Part shown: piece by piece, positions 1 to 36,578 of the stretch
Numbering within the stretch: the stretch's first letter is position 1
Layout of the letters: each line of letters opens with the position of its first letter
Assembly: GCA_007618135.1 (NCBI GenBank)
Contig: PHFX01000017.1
Coordinates: forward strand, 1-37,951
From: Candidatus Brocadia sp. WS118
GTDB taxonomy: Bacteria; Planctomycetota; Brocadiia; Brocadiales; Brocadiaceae
Direction of reading: 5' to 3'
DNA: 37,951 nt
Notes under the pieces: model-generated
Told to the model about the DNA's origin: nothing
Databases searched by the model: none
Seen by the model: only the letters and a program-made list of their open reading frames with translations
Translations under genes and position numbers: made by a program

Positions 1-49
1 CTCTTTTTTTATGGTTCCCTTATTTACACGTTAACGTTAAGGACTTTCA

Positions 50-130
50 ATCACCCCCCATAATCCCCCAGTTTACGGGGGGAAACAGGGGGGAAAATCA
101 CCGAAAGCCTATTTAAATGTATAGGAATTT
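50..130. repeat. C/G-run hairpin repeat, copy 1
   Basis: A C-rich arm (CACCCCCCATAATCCCCC) is followed by GTTTACGGGGGG and further G runs, then a tail with TTTAAATGTATAGGAATTTCAA. The same arrangement, with a better-preserved hairpin, occurs at 34240-34350, so this is a dispersed intergenic repeat. No coding capacity is seen. Its function is unknown; it could act as a structured spacer or a transcription attenuator. Confidence 0.7.
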
Positions 131-142
131 CAAACCGATCTT

Positions 143-196
143 GTAGTGCGGGGGTTTATCCCCCGCCGTTGGCTGACCACAAGAGATCGGCGCTAC
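143..196 (-). repeat. 54-bp dispersed palindromic repeat, copy 1
   Basis: The reverse complement starts GTAGCGCCGATC and ends CCCGCACTAC. It matches the 54-bp segment at 8961-9014, which has the same ends, the same length and the internal motifs TTGTGGTC and GCGGGGGATAAAC. The ends (GTAGCGC / GCACTAC) are near-inverted repeats, typical of REP/MITE-like intergenic elements. It lies immediately beyond the terminator of the small peptide gene. Confidence 0.75.
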
Positions 197-211
197 GTCT
201 CAAAAGATGCA

Positions 212-254
212 TTCAAAGAAAAAGTCGTTGGGGTTCTGTCTTTTAAAACCCAAC
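212..254 (-). terminator. rho-independent terminator of the small peptide gene
   Basis: On the minus strand GTTGGGTTT and AACCCCAAC form a stem with one mismatch, followed by GACTTTTTCTTTG. It sits about 10 bases past the stop codon of the peptide gene and would make that gene a short monocistronic transcript. Confidence 0.65.
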
Positions 255-263
255 CTAATTTAA

Positions 264-440
264 CTACGGTACAAAAGCACTAAAGAACCCATTGCCAGTA
301 ATCCTGGTTGCATCGCCGTGTTTTGTAAGCTTCGGTTCAATGAAGGTTAACTTAGGCTCTGCAAAAGGCTTCCTGGTTTGGGAAGCAGGTAAGTCATGAA
401 CCTCATGACCAATGTGTTCTGCTGAAATCTTTTCTGACAT
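264..440 (-). CDS. RiPP (lasso-family-leader) precursor-like peptide
   Basis: A 58-residue peptide with no transmembrane segment or signal peptide. ATG at 440 is chosen because AAAGGAGGTGA lies just upstream; the in-frame GTG at 449 would overlap that ribosome site. The C-terminal half has P-x-L-x3-G-x5-T spacing (EPKLTKHGDATRIT), the leader signature of lasso-type RiPP precursors recognised by RRE (PqqD-like) proteins. The leader element is duplicated (AEPKLTF then IEPKLTK). The presumed core after the conserved Thr is short and hydrophobic, about GNGFFSAFVP, with no Asp or Glu for a lasso macrolactam, so a classical lasso peptide is unlikely. It is preceded by a c-di-GMP-I riboswitch and followed by a terminator. 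No modifying enzyme is visible in the window. It could instead be a small unmodified secreted or signalling peptide. Confidence 0.7.
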   Translation of the reverse strand: MSEKISAEHIGHEVHDLPASQTRKPFAEPKLTFIEPKLTKHGDATRITGNGFFSAFVP

Positions 441-473
441 TTTTCTCACCTCCTTTATAGTTTAAATATTCCC

Positions 474-531
474 AAAATAAAAAAAGCCTTACTGCAAAAA
501 TGTTTACTAACACATTTTCGGCAGTAAGGCT
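474..531 (-). terminator. riboswitch expression-platform terminator (copy 1)
   Basis: Minus-strand AGCCTTACTGC (531 to 521) pairs perfectly over 11 bp with GCAGTAAGGCT (495 to 485). There is an inner AAAATGT/ACATTTT stem, and the hairpin is followed by TTTTTTATTTT. The 5' arm is also the 3' end of the c-di-GMP-I aptamer, so the two folds are mutually exclusive. Confidence 0.9.
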
Positions 532-607
532 ATCTTACGCAACATCCTTGTGTATTTAAAGACCCTTTACTTTGCGTCCCCTGATCACTCAGGGTTTGCC
601 TTTATCG
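517..607 (-). promoter_or_regulatory. cyclic di-GMP-I (GEMM-I) riboswitch aptamer, copy 1
   Basis: Read on the minus strand: AAAGGCAAACC, a CCTGA/TCAGG hairpin, GGGGACGCAAAG, a second stem, then ATAGCCTTACTGCCGAA. These are the conserved blocks of the GEMM-I class: GGCAAACC, GACGCAAAG, and the 3' TAGCC..CCGAA. The G of GGCAAACC is retained, which favours c-di-GMP over the cGAMP-sensing variants. It lies between a promoter (638-666) and the small RiPP-like gene. Because the aptamer's 3' strand is the terminator 5' arm, ligand binding should prevent termination (ON switch; inference). Confidence 0.92.
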
Positions 608-637
608 TGACACCGCAGAACTTCTCTATATTAGATC

Positions 638-666
638 ATCGTAAATGCAGAATATCCTTGTGTCAA
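638..666 (-). promoter_or_regulatory. sigma70-type promoter for riboswitch copy 1
   Basis: On the minus strand TTGACA (666-661), a 17-base spacer and TACGAT (643-638). It is placed about 30 bases before the aptamer, so the whole riboswitch would be in the leader. Confidence 0.7.
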
Positions 667-803: not shown

Positions 804-3110
804 TTATTGTGGACGGAACCTGCCGAAGAAACCTTTTCTGGTAACCTTTGATCTCTTCTTGAATTTTGCACGATTTGGTTCAGTAGTGGTTTTTTTGAGT
901 GCCGTAGAAGATACATCGTTCTCAACTCCCAACACATCCACAATGAACTTGAACGACTTTTTCTCCTTTAAACAAATGACGAAGGGGACATTTACAAATT
1001 CTCCAGGACTCAGTACGCCATCTGCATAAGCGCCTGTCAAGGGAATGGTCATTATTGACCCTTCCCCACCATTCCCTCCGTCTGCATTATGGAGAAGATT
1101 CCCATTTGTTAGCGTTTTCACCTGAACCGCAAGGTTTAAAAGAGACGGACTACTGCCCTTGTTTGTGAGTTTGGCATCGAAACTGAATTTCCCGACAAAT
1201 CCTGGCGGACAGCCCGTAGTATCAGAAGTAGTCGCATACGTTAATTTTATAGGTTCAAAGAGGACGAGGTCATTAATAATTTCCGGTGTCGGGACAGGCG
1301 TTGGCGCCGGCGACGGTGTCGGAGTCGGCGTTACTTCCGGACTTGGCGTTGGTGTTACCGTCGCTGTAGCCGTTGGTGTTGGCGTTGTCTCCGGTGACGG
1401 ACTTGGTGAAGGCGTTGGTAGTGGCGTAGCAGGCGCTTCCCACGTCTTTGTCACAGAATTTGATGTTGTCGTCCTGCCGTAGAAATCACTAAAGCTTGCC
1501 TCGATCGTGTCGGTGCCTTCCGTCGTACCCGTATAGGTAAACGTTGCCTGTCCATTTGCATCCGTTGTGTCATTGCCATTTACTCCTGCGTGTGGGCCAG
1601 AGGTAATGTAGAAAAATAACACTATACCCTCAATTGGCTCTGTAGATTCACCTTCCACGGTCTCCACGGTAGCAGTAACGGTATGTTGCGAGCCTATGAA
1701 ATTTGTCTCAGAGTACGGGGTCAAAACAATCGTATCGAGACAAGAGTCAAATGCCGTCCGCCATGGGCTGAAATCCACATAGGCGCTGACCGCAGCACCC
1801 GTTCCAGGCCCAACGCCGGAAGGTCCACTGGCGTTGCCCCACCAGTTGTTTTCCGCGTCAAGTGTAATTGCACTGGAGGTATTGGTAACTCCCGAACTCG
1901 TATTGCCGGCAATGCTGCAATCCGTTACGGTTGGATTCGAATTGCTCTCTGCATAGACACCATTGACATTATCCGTTATTTTTGAACAAGATATCGAAGG
2001 AAGGGAATTACTTTCCGTTGTGTAAATTCCATGTCCATCGGAATTCCGAATAACGCACCGTTGAATGGTAGGCGAGGCGTTGAGACAATAGATGTTCGAA
2101 TCGTAACTGTTAAATCCGCCGTATTCCACGGTGCAATAGTCCAGAATCGTAGTGCTATCATCGGTGTGCTCGAAAAAAACAATCCCTTCCCAGTCACCGG
2201 GCGCAGGGGTTGATGCACTTGAGGTGAAGGTGATAGGACTGCCGCTTGTCCCGTCGGCAATCAGAGTAGCCTTGCTGTAATAGCCGATGAAAAGTGCTGC
2301 CCCATTATCAAATTTCACCAGACACCCCGGATTTATCGTTAATGTTGCGCTGCTATATACGTGGATGTCGTCGCCGGTCACTTGAAAGTAAAAGTCCTGC
2401 GACACCCAGGTACGGTCTACCGTTATAACCCCGCCCCGCACCTCAATGGCATCTGTCCCATTTCCGCTCCCGGTATTTCCCGTTACATTGCTGTCTAACA
2501 AGCCACAGAACAAAGTTACGGGGTAAATGGCATTGTTGCTCATGGTGTTATTTGTTAACGTGGGTGCTGAGTCATTATCACAATAGATTCCATATCCATC
2601 GGAATACCGTATGGTGCAATTTTGAATGGTAGGCGAGGCATTATTGCAATTAATATTGGAATCATAACTATCAAACCCGCCGTATTCTACCGTACAATAG
2701 TCCATAACCGTTGAACCATCCACGGTGCTATTGAAAAAGACGATTCCCCGCCAGTCAGCAGGCGCAGGGGAACCAGCATTTGAGGTGAAGGTGATAGGAG
2801 CATCTTCTGTCCCTACCGCTTTCAAAGCAGCCGCGCTGTAATACCCGATGAAAAGGGCCGCCGTGCTATCAAACTTAACTACACACCCTTTTTCTATCGT
2901 TAATGTTGCTTCGTCATACACATGTATGTAAGTCGTAACGATATGGGGATTATCAGCGGCATACCACGTCTCATCTTTGGTAATATTATTACTGCTATGG
3001 TTCAGCGCATAAGAAACACCATTCCTGGACAACGTTAACATACAGACCGCAAGCAAGAGCAGTCCTGTGCTCAACAAAAACGACTTTGCTCTCCGTTTGA
3101 CACTATTCAT
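804..3110 (-). CDS. exported right-handed beta-helix surface protein with Ig-like domain and Thr/Pro linker
   Basis: A 768-residue exported protein. Residues 1-36 form a Sec signal peptide (KRR, then a Leu-rich core). Residues about 60-430 are parallel beta-helix repeats of the pectate-lyase/NosD type (ASPTIQNCTIRYSDGYGIYC). They include an internal duplication of about 187 residues, with GCVVKFD near 75 and GCLVKFD near 262 and DYCTVEYGGF in both halves. Residues about 455-560 resemble an Ig-like/invasin (Big_1-type) domain (DTTDANGQATFTYTGTTEGT). A linker at 561-610 is almost only Thr, Pro and Ser. A CARDB-like beta domain follows, then a basic tail ending GFFGRFRPQ. The start has GAGGAGG about 8 bases upstream. 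It is controlled by its own c-di-GMP-I riboswitch, so an adhesin or matrix role is likely; no catalytic residues are evident. Confidence 0.85.
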   Translation of the reverse strand: MNSVKRRAKSFLLSTGLLLLAVCMLTLSRNGVSYALNHSSNNITKDETWYAADNPHIVTTYIHVYDEATLTIEKGCVVKFDSTAALFIGYYSAAALKAVGTEDAPITFTSNAGSPAPADWRGIVFFNSTVDGSTVMDYCTVEYGGFDSYDSNINCNNASPTIQNCTIRYSDGYGIYCDNDSAPTLTNNTMSNNAIYPVTLFCGLLDSNVTGNTGSGNGTDAIEVRGGVITVDRTWVSQDFYFQVTGDDIHVYSSATLTINPGCLVKFDNGAALFIGYYSKATLIADGTSGSPITFTSSASTPAPGDWEGIVFFEHTDDSTTILDYCTVEYGGFNSYDSNIYCLNASPTIQRCVIRNSDGHGIYTTESNSLPSISCSKITDNVNGVYAESNSNPTVTDCSIAGNTSSGVTNTSSAITLDAENNWWGNASGPSGVGPGTGAAVSAYVDFSPWRTAFDSCLDTIVLTPYSETNFIGSQHTVTATVETVEGESTEPIEGIVLFFYITSGPHAGVNGNDTTDANGQATFTYTGTTEGTDTIEASFSDFYGRTTTSNSVTKTWEAPATPLPTPSPSPSPETTPTPTATATVTPTPSPEVTPTPTPSPAPTPVPTPEIINDLVLFEPIKLTYATTSDTTGCPPGFVGKFSFDAKLTNKGSSPSLLNLAVQVKTLTNGNLLHNADGGNGGEGSIMTIPLTGAYADGVLSPGEFVNVPFVICLKEKKSFKFIVDVLGVENDVSSTALKKTTTEPNRAKFKKRSKVTRKGFFGRFRPQ

Positions 3111-3172: not shown

Positions 3173-3227
3173 AAAACAAAAAAGCCTTACTGCAAAGATT
3201 TTTCCAAACATCTTCGGCAGTAAGGCT
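3173..3227 (-). terminator. riboswitch expression-platform terminator (copy 2)
   Basis: AGCCTTACTGC (3227-3217) and GCAGTAAGGCT (3193-3183) pair over 11 bp with an inner AAGAT/ATCTT stem, followed by TTTTTTGTTTTT. The arms are identical to those of copies 1 and 3. Confidence 0.9.
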
Positions 3228-3303
3228 GTCTTTTTCTACGTCCGTATATCCTGAAGACCCTTTTACTTTGCGCCCCCTGATTACTCAGGGTTTACCTTTA
3301 TCG
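3214..3303 (-). promoter_or_regulatory. cyclic di-GMP-I riboswitch aptamer, copy 2
   Basis: Minus-strand blocks are AAAGGTAAACC, CCTGAGTAATCAGG, GGGGGCGCAAAG and CAGCCTTACTGCCGAA. Compared with copies 1 and 3 it has GGTAAACC for GGCAAACC and GGCGCAAAG for GACGCAAAG, two changes in otherwise conserved positions. It precedes the 768-residue surface protein gene. Confidence 0.88.
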
Positions 3304-3352
3304 GATATTTTATTACGTTACTTTATAACGAACTTTTGATGTTTGATGGGCA

Positions 3353-35622: not shown

Positions 35623-36246
35623 TTACCGTCTCTTTGGCTTTCTTATACCTCTTTTTTTTACCGTGATTTTATACAAATCCGCCTCTAAATCTGCAAATTC
35701 AAAAAAACCTCCTGCATCGGAGAGCGTATTCTCTTTAATCTTCGTTTTTACTCCATTGGTCTTTACCTTTGCAGATTTAATAGGACTTCCTCCGGTGTCT
35801 ACTACAAAGCCCGATATCTTACCCTTTGCACCTGGAGTGGGTGTTGGGGTTGGTGTAGGTAGTGTTACAAGTCCAAATACCTGGATGCGGTTGTTGCCGG
35901 CATCACTAACAACGATACGGTCGGTACTGTCAACTGCTACGTAGAGTGGATAATTAAACTGTCCATCTCCAGCGCCATGAGAGCCGAACTTGCGGAGGAA
36001 ATTGCCAGACGAGTCGAATACCTGGATACGATTATTGTATTTATCAGCACCGATGATATTATTCGCACTGTCAACTGCTACACCACATAGACCAACAAAC
36101 TGTCCGTCTCCAGTACCGCTCGAACCGAACTCGAACAGGAATTGATACTCCTGATCGTTAGCCGTCATAGTATTTGCCACCGTTTCTGATAATACGACCG
36201 TTATCAAAACCATCATATATGGAACTAAGGTCTTTATCCTCAACAT
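35623..36246 (-). CDS. exported NHL-repeat protein with carboxypeptidase-regulatory-like domain, possibly frameshifted
   Basis: A 207-residue exported protein. Residues 1-24 are a signal peptide; two NHL beta-propeller repeats follow (about 36-78 and 84-124; GVAVDSANNIIGADKYNNRIQVFDSSGNFLRKFGS). There is a TPTPTPTP linker (131-138) and a Ca2+/carboxypeptidase-regulatory-like beta-sandwich (GKISGFVVDTGGSPIKSAKVKTNG, DAGGFFEFADL). The stop comes just after ITVKKRG at a run of eight A. With one more A the frame would continue as VKKKRYKKAKETVKLEEGEYEEITIEMKN to a stop at 35573, completing the domain. It has its own promoter and c-di-GMP-I riboswitch, so it is likely a surface or matrix protein. 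Confidence 0.8.
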   Translation of the reverse strand: MLRIKTLVPYMMVLITVVLSETVANTMTANDQEYQFLFEFGSSGTGDGQFVGLCGVAVDSANNIIGADKYNNRIQVFDSSGNFLRKFGSHGAGDGQFNYPLYVAVDSTDRIVVSDAGNNRIQVFGLVTLPTPTPTPTPGAKGKISGFVVDTGGSPIKSAKVKTNGVKTKIKENTLSDAGGFFEFADLEADLYKITVKKRGIRKPKRR

Positions 36247-36357: not shown

Positions 36358-36413
36358 AAACAAAAAAGCCTTACTGCAAAGATATTCTGGTAAACATCTT
36401 CGGCAGTAAGGCT
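36358..36413 (-). terminator. riboswitch expression-platform terminator (copy 3)
   Basis: AGCCTTACTGC (36413-36403) pairs with GCAGTAAGGCT (36377-36367) over 11 bp, with TTTTTTGTTT following. Arms identical to copies 1 and 2. Confidence 0.9.
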
Positions 36414-36519
36414 GTCTTTTTATAAGCCGTTTGAACGGTTTAAGCGGTTTAAACTGTTTAATCGGCTCGCAAGATCCTTTACTTTGCGTCCCCTGATTAC
36501 TCAGGGTTTGCCTTTATCG
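36400..36519 (-). promoter_or_regulatory. cyclic di-GMP-I riboswitch aptamer, copy 3, with extended stem
   Basis: Minus-strand blocks AAAGGCAAACC, CCTGAGTAATCAGG, GGGGACGCAAAG and CAGCCTTACTGCCGAA. The stem between the second and third block is extended by about 30 bases made of imperfect repeats of GTTTAAACNG, giving an aptamer of 120 bases against about 90 in copies 1 and 2. It controls the NHL protein. Confidence 0.88.
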
Positions 36520-36578
36520 TAATGTTTTTGCTATTACAACATTACCTGTAAAAAACCATTCTTTTAAACCTGTTATTT

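Follow-up and report, generated by a model that had tools for sequence, protein, structure and literature searches.

A GEMM-I riboswitch ahead of a gene for a putative lasso-like RiPP precursor in the anammox bacterium Candidatus Brocadia sp. WS118

We computationally analyzed a stretch of 37,951 nucleotides (the window) from Candidatus Brocadia sp. WS118. It makes up contig C229 in full, one of the 299 contigs of a 5.04 Mb assembly with a completeness of 96%. The minus strand carries a compact unit at positions 666-264, comprising a promoter-like site, a GEMM-I aptamer, an overlapping terminator with a U tail, a ribosome-binding site and a 58-aa open reading frame (ORF); the contig ends 263 bp past the stop codon of this frame. 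The initial annotation had described a promoter-aptamer-terminator cassette in front of a 58-residue peptide, and all of its parts were located with their coordinates correct. The features are as follows.

1..263, minus strand: dispersed repeat (most of the segment) between the precursor gene and the contig end, with 57 matches in the genome
within 1..263, minus strand: last 26 bp of the window, resembling the beginning of the gene that encodes the HprK-like kinase in Ca. Brocadia pituitae
264..440, minus strand: gene for the 58-aa precursor peptide, with its ATG at position 440 and its stop codon at 264; the leader reads ...EPKLTFIEPKLTKHGDATRIT-G, and NGFFSAFVP is the predicted core
449..454, minus strand: Shine-Dalgarno sequence AGGAGG, read from the sequence
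476..531, minus strand: intrinsic terminator (stem ~531-485, U tract 485-478)
516..609, minus strand: GEMM-I (c-di-GMP-I clan) aptamer (RF03167, 70 bits, E 9.6e-15)
638..666, minus strand: sigma-70-like promoter TTGACA-17-TACGAT (consensus scan, 10/12 matches; by chance alone, the stretch scanned should hold ~1.3 such sites)
804..3110, minus strand: exported beta-helix protein of 768 aa with tail KGFFGRFRPQ, the partner protein, encoded just upstream of the peptide
807..1283, minus strand: part of the 768-aa protein comprising its C-terminal domain and the tail FFGRFRP
3212..3305, minus strand: second GEMM-I riboswitch, before the 804-3110 gene (RF03167, 61.2 bits), followed by a terminator

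Conservation ruled out a chance ORF and marks the 58-aa frame as a real gene. Relatives are encoded by 11 further anammox genomes, one Nitrospiraceae and one Desulfosarcina MAG (14 genomes including its own), a family that spans Nitrospirota and Desulfobacterota besides the anammox bacteria. Nearly all relatives contain EPKLTFIEPKLTKHGDATKIT and then a short end with FFGxFxP, and the 21-residue leader motif has a pN/pS of 0.048 (13 sequences, three phyla). The proposed P-x-L-x3-G-x5-T leader motif is indeed present, as PKLTKHGDATRIT; with its T placed at -2, the leader register reads F(-17)xxP(-14)xL(-12)xxxG(-8). The predicted cores are 6-14 aa long and each contains Ser or Thr. Cys, the thioether donor, is absent from all of them, and a sactipeptide or ranthipeptide was rejected on this ground. 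A DNA pattern search for FFGxFxP in the genome returned mostly one recurring sequence resembling a dispersed repeat. The repeat at 1-263 consists of several separable segments at the contig end.

The 120 residues ahead of the tail region of the 768-aa protein form a domain with no Pfam or NCBIfam match. Its structural model is a beta sandwich (pLDDT 73.5) with a disordered tail, and a fold search with this domain gave weak matches to beta-sandwich proteins only, none below E 0.001. Of 61 order-level genomes, 12 carry the peptide, and the domain was found in 10 of these 12 and in no other (hypergeometric ~7e-10, calculated by hand and ignoring shared ancestry); B. pituitae and genome G006 have the peptide and lack the domain. 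Proteins with the domain are exported, and in Brocadiaceae, Scalindua, Anammoxibacter and Nitrospiraceae their genes lie upstream of the peptide gene; the domain sits at the C-terminus except in Jettenia. The second copy of the domain in this genome (contig C25) lies behind a GEMM-I riboswitch, and among relatives a GEMM-I aptamer precedes the tail protein in locus L133 and stands farther away in L050 and L131. A small exported protein resembling the secretin/TonB short N-terminal domain, with Pfam and NCBIfam matches at noise level only, is encoded upstream of tail or domain proteins in three loci (L130 863-1351, L051 1708-2232, L058 8251-8826).

In twelve Brocadiaceae proteins, a variable linker leads to a terminal FF(G/R)RFxP in which F, F, R, F and P are invariant. 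It is possible, if rather unlikely, that the likeness between this tail and the FFGxFxP core of the peptide is coincidental or of independent origin. The tails do not contain the PKLxxxG motif, are confined to Brocadiaceae, and only one of them is significant with the precursor profile (E 0.0012; others 0.6 to 7.5; best shuffled control 0.37). Nevertheless, five tails rank first among the non-precursor matches of the precursor HMM in a search of 5815 ORFs, both motifs terminate their proteins, and the genes are adjacent. The tail in genome G021 (ATRISGNGFFGRFRP) also resembles the peptide sequence ATRITGNGFFSAFVP.

The aptamer at 609-516 on the minus strand belongs to the GEMM-I/c-di-GMP-I clan (CL00126), as its covariance-model score of 70 bits exceeds the gathering cut-off of 59 bits for its best Rfam match, RF03167 (c-di-GMP-I-GGC). 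A match to RF01051 at 517-607 had been anticipated; the clan was matched, with RF03167 (the GGC variant) outscoring RF01051. The 211-nt leader folds 4 SD below shuffles. The 5' arm of the terminator (AGCCUUACUGC) is the P3 3' strand of the aptamer, and because the aptamer uses this arm, ligand binding is predicted to prevent termination, giving the window aptamer the predicted architecture of an ON switch. The same terminator type, under a strict pattern, follows 25 of the 30 aptamers of this genome that were read. GEMM-I aptamers number 38 in this genome (G000) and 22 to 58 in each congeneric genome; the riboswitch itself is common in the genus Brocadia, and the unusual part is its target. 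Across relatives, most peptide genes have no riboswitch directly upstream, and one recurs only in some.

Further aptamers of the window lie at 3212-3305 and 36398-36521. The third riboswitch lies in front of the gene for an NHL-repeat protein (35623-36246), which aligns with part of NF052345, the model for the anammox S-layer glycoprotein, at E 1.8e-7 and a score far below the cut-off. With 38 aptamers, the GEMM-I regulon of this genome is unusually large, and many of its targets look exported; read by eye, they include peptidases, NHL and beta-helix proteins, a pilin-like protein and a response-regulator-like protein.

At the selectivity position of GEMM-I aptamers, G corresponds to c-di-GMP and A to c-AMP-GMP (PMC9481103). 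Since the window aptamer has G at this position (GAUAAAGGCAAACC), c-di-GMP is predicted as its ligand and is most likely what it senses. A different ligand, either c-AMP-GMP or that of the GGC variant, appears unlikely. RF03167 is the top Rfam match, and the selectivity position is occupied by A, the letter of c-AMP-GMP aptamers, in a related aptamer that precedes a tail-protein gene in Brocadia (L133, 5348-5469; GACAAAAGCAAACC). The window aptamer, however, carries the c-di-GMP letter there (PMC9481103). Moreover, where the RF03167 consensus shows G in GACGC(G)AA, a letter that is variant-defining by our own reading of the model, the window has A, within GACGCAAAG, as do all 30 aptamers of this genome that were read (30/30) and the RF01051 consensus. 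Given the A in the L133 aptamer, the same gene family may therefore answer two signals in related species.

In relatives, the peptide is followed by a previously undescribed, putative peptide-modifying gene cluster. Its order is HprK-like kinase, radical SAM, PqqD RRE, B2 peptidase and NTP_transf_5, and it is present in Brocadia, Jettenia, Loosdrechtia, Scalindua and Desulfosarcina and in part in Anammoxibacter. A GNAT gene stands between kinase and radical SAM in Scalindua and Anammoxibacter. The kinase (P0004) contains H, G, G, G, K, S and DD spaced as in BsfK. The radical SAM protein has CX3CX2C and further cysteines, with a sub-threshold SPASM match; it falls far below every NCBIfam equivalog, and among proteins of solved structure SkfB, a cytosylglucuronate decarboxylase and PqqE come closest to it. 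The RRE is a PF05402 protein whose closest solved relative is the lasso B1 protein TbiB1, and the B2 peptidase scores above the NF033537 cut-off. Relatives thus have the discrete RRE and CX3CX2C radical SAM protein beside the precursor that characterize a RiPP system of this kind, an arrangement not assembled in this genome. No exporter was recognised for the peptide system. Transposase-like genes occur in or beside the cluster (L132 9229-10281, L131 5223-6727, L053 7505-8515) and, together with its patchy distribution, suggest that it moves horizontally.

Searches of the WS118 assembly for kinase, radical SAM and PqqD orthologues found none. A genome with no RRE or modification enzyme had been named as the finding that would speak against a modified peptide; the RRE and radical SAM are missing from the assembly, but the B2 peptidase is present at two contig starts, which weakens the idea that the enzymes are absent from the genome. 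These contigs, C292 and C250, share the same starting base inside B2 and stay 96.3% identical over 244 bp before they diverge, each carrying its own NTP_transf_5-type gene after B2 (the C250 gene identified by eye). Because both break at one base inside B2, the kinase-radical SAM-PqqD-B2 block probably exists as two near-identical copies that were collapsed and lost in assembly. On the minus strand, the final 26 bases of the window align with the kinase start of Ca. B. pituitae (score 35, against 24 for the best of 300 shuffles); apart from this match at the contig end, comparison of the dispersed repeat with the precursor-kinase gap of relatives gave short matches only. The window peptide would then continue into one of the two copies, and the genome would hold a full cluster.

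Alternatively, the enzymes could have been lost, leaving the peptide as an orphan in a decaying riboswitch-peptide unit. We regard this as quite improbable. The failure to find kinase, radical SAM and PqqD in an assembly that is 96% complete agrees with it, as does G006, which likewise has the peptide and no kinase match. Yet the window end matches a kinase start, the leader is fully intact, and two B2-NTP_transf_5 contig starts broken at one base are typical of a collapsed repeat.

The designation of the peptide as a RiPP/lasso-like precursor held for its lasso-type leader and for the RRE, B2 and kinase genes beside the precursor in relatives, but not for a lasso product. The lasso leader pattern YxxPxL...T(-2) is present as FIEPKLTKHGDATRIT, with F replacing Y, and NCBIfam lasso leader models stay below cut-off (16.6/33 and 13.7/19 bits). 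In related clusters, the radical SAM protein occupies the place expected for a lasso cyclase. That this is a normal lasso peptide whose leader is unusual, a reading favored by the leader motif, by the lasso-type PqqD and B2 models and by the presence, in common with phosphorylated lasso clusters, of an HprK-like kinase and NTP_transf_5 (PMC10368454), is barely tenable and was largely refuted on core and cyclase, as the cores are 6-14 aa long with Asp/Glu at positions 7-9 in 0 of the 16 canonical predicted cores covered by the core tests, and no asparagine-synthetase-like cyclase gene lies between precursor and NTP_transf_5 in any intact related cluster.

Our main reading, to which we assign a probability of about 70%, is that a GEMM-I ON riboswitch, most likely responding to c-di-GMP, controls a lasso-like but non-lasso RiPP precursor that acts with exported proteins. 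We infer the following order of processing. As predicted from the sequence, binding of c-di-GMP would keep the P3 strand within the aptamer, so that no terminator forms and the gene is read. Judging by the protein families involved, the PqqD-type RRE would hold the F(-17)xxP(-14)xL(-12) leader of the precursor, and the HprK-like kinase and the radical-SAM/SPASM-like protein would modify the FFGxFxP core of 6-14 residues by something other than a macrolactam or a Cys thioether. The B2 peptidase would then cleave after T-x. The product may act with the exported proteins encoded upstream, which share the C-terminal domain and, in Brocadiaceae, the FFGRFxP tail; in this genome these partners are likewise under GEMM-I riboswitches. 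As a role we prefer, speculatively, a surface or aggregation (matrix) system that is on at high c-di-GMP. A bolder extension, which we consider doubtful, is that one RiPP machine serves two substrates: besides the short peptide in its free form, it would act on the FFGRFxP tails at the C-termini of large exported proteins, and would thereby provide a c-di-GMP-switched, radical-SAM-based C-terminal processing or attachment of surface proteins.

If the main reading is true, the second messenger of the attached, aggregated lifestyle would be tied directly to a modified peptide. In the literature examined, of which coverage was partial, no paper joins a c-di-GMP riboswitch and a RiPP. The system offers a defined, cross-phylum candidate RiPP class that combines lasso-type leader handling with a radical-SAM maturase, together with a co-occurring, conserved domain of exported proteins. 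It may also point to a surface system of a new, peptide-based kind in this anammox bacterium, and anammox granule formation matters in wastewater treatment.

Compared with the c-di-GMP-I riboswitches of RF01051 and the GGC variant RF03167, the window riboswitch is alike in aptamer sequence, structure and terminator overlap. It differs in that the GGC model scores best although A replaces its consensus G, and in having a RiPP-type precursor as its target. Among modification systems, the SynChlorMet cassette (ScmC, ScmD, ScmE/F) also brings together HprK-like, PqqD-like and radical-SAM/SPASM proteins, and its family models match ours weakly. Here, however, there is one radical SAM protein instead of two, B2 and NTP_transf_5 are present, and scores lie far below the equivalog cut-offs (ScmC 15/125, ScmD 34/100, ScmE 82/400 and ScmF 75/400 bits). 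RRE-Finder listed ~300 lasso-type RREs adjoining radical SAM enzymes and left them undescribed, in the available parts of that report (PMC7470986). In these cases, as in our system, an RRE of this type is paired with a radical SAM enzyme, whereas a precursor, a riboswitch or a link to exported proteins is not reported in those parts (PMC7470986). The closest comparison is offered by the phosphorylated lasso systems of the Bsf and paeninodin type, of which the Bsf system of Bradymonas sediminis, with the lasso precursor BsfA and the kinase BsfK, has been studied experimentally (PMC10368454). The leader register (aromatic residue at -17, P at -14, L at -12), the discrete PqqD RRE, the B2 peptidase and the HprK-like kinase with equal H/G/G/G/K/S/DD spacing are common to both (PMC10368454), and T at -2 is found here as in most lasso leaders. 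By contrast, our system has F instead of Y at -17, a core of only 6-14 aa that lacks the ring Asp/Glu, and a radical SAM protein instead of the lasso cyclase. Lasso-type leader handling is the known part of this system, and its putative joining to a radical-SAM maturase would be the new one.
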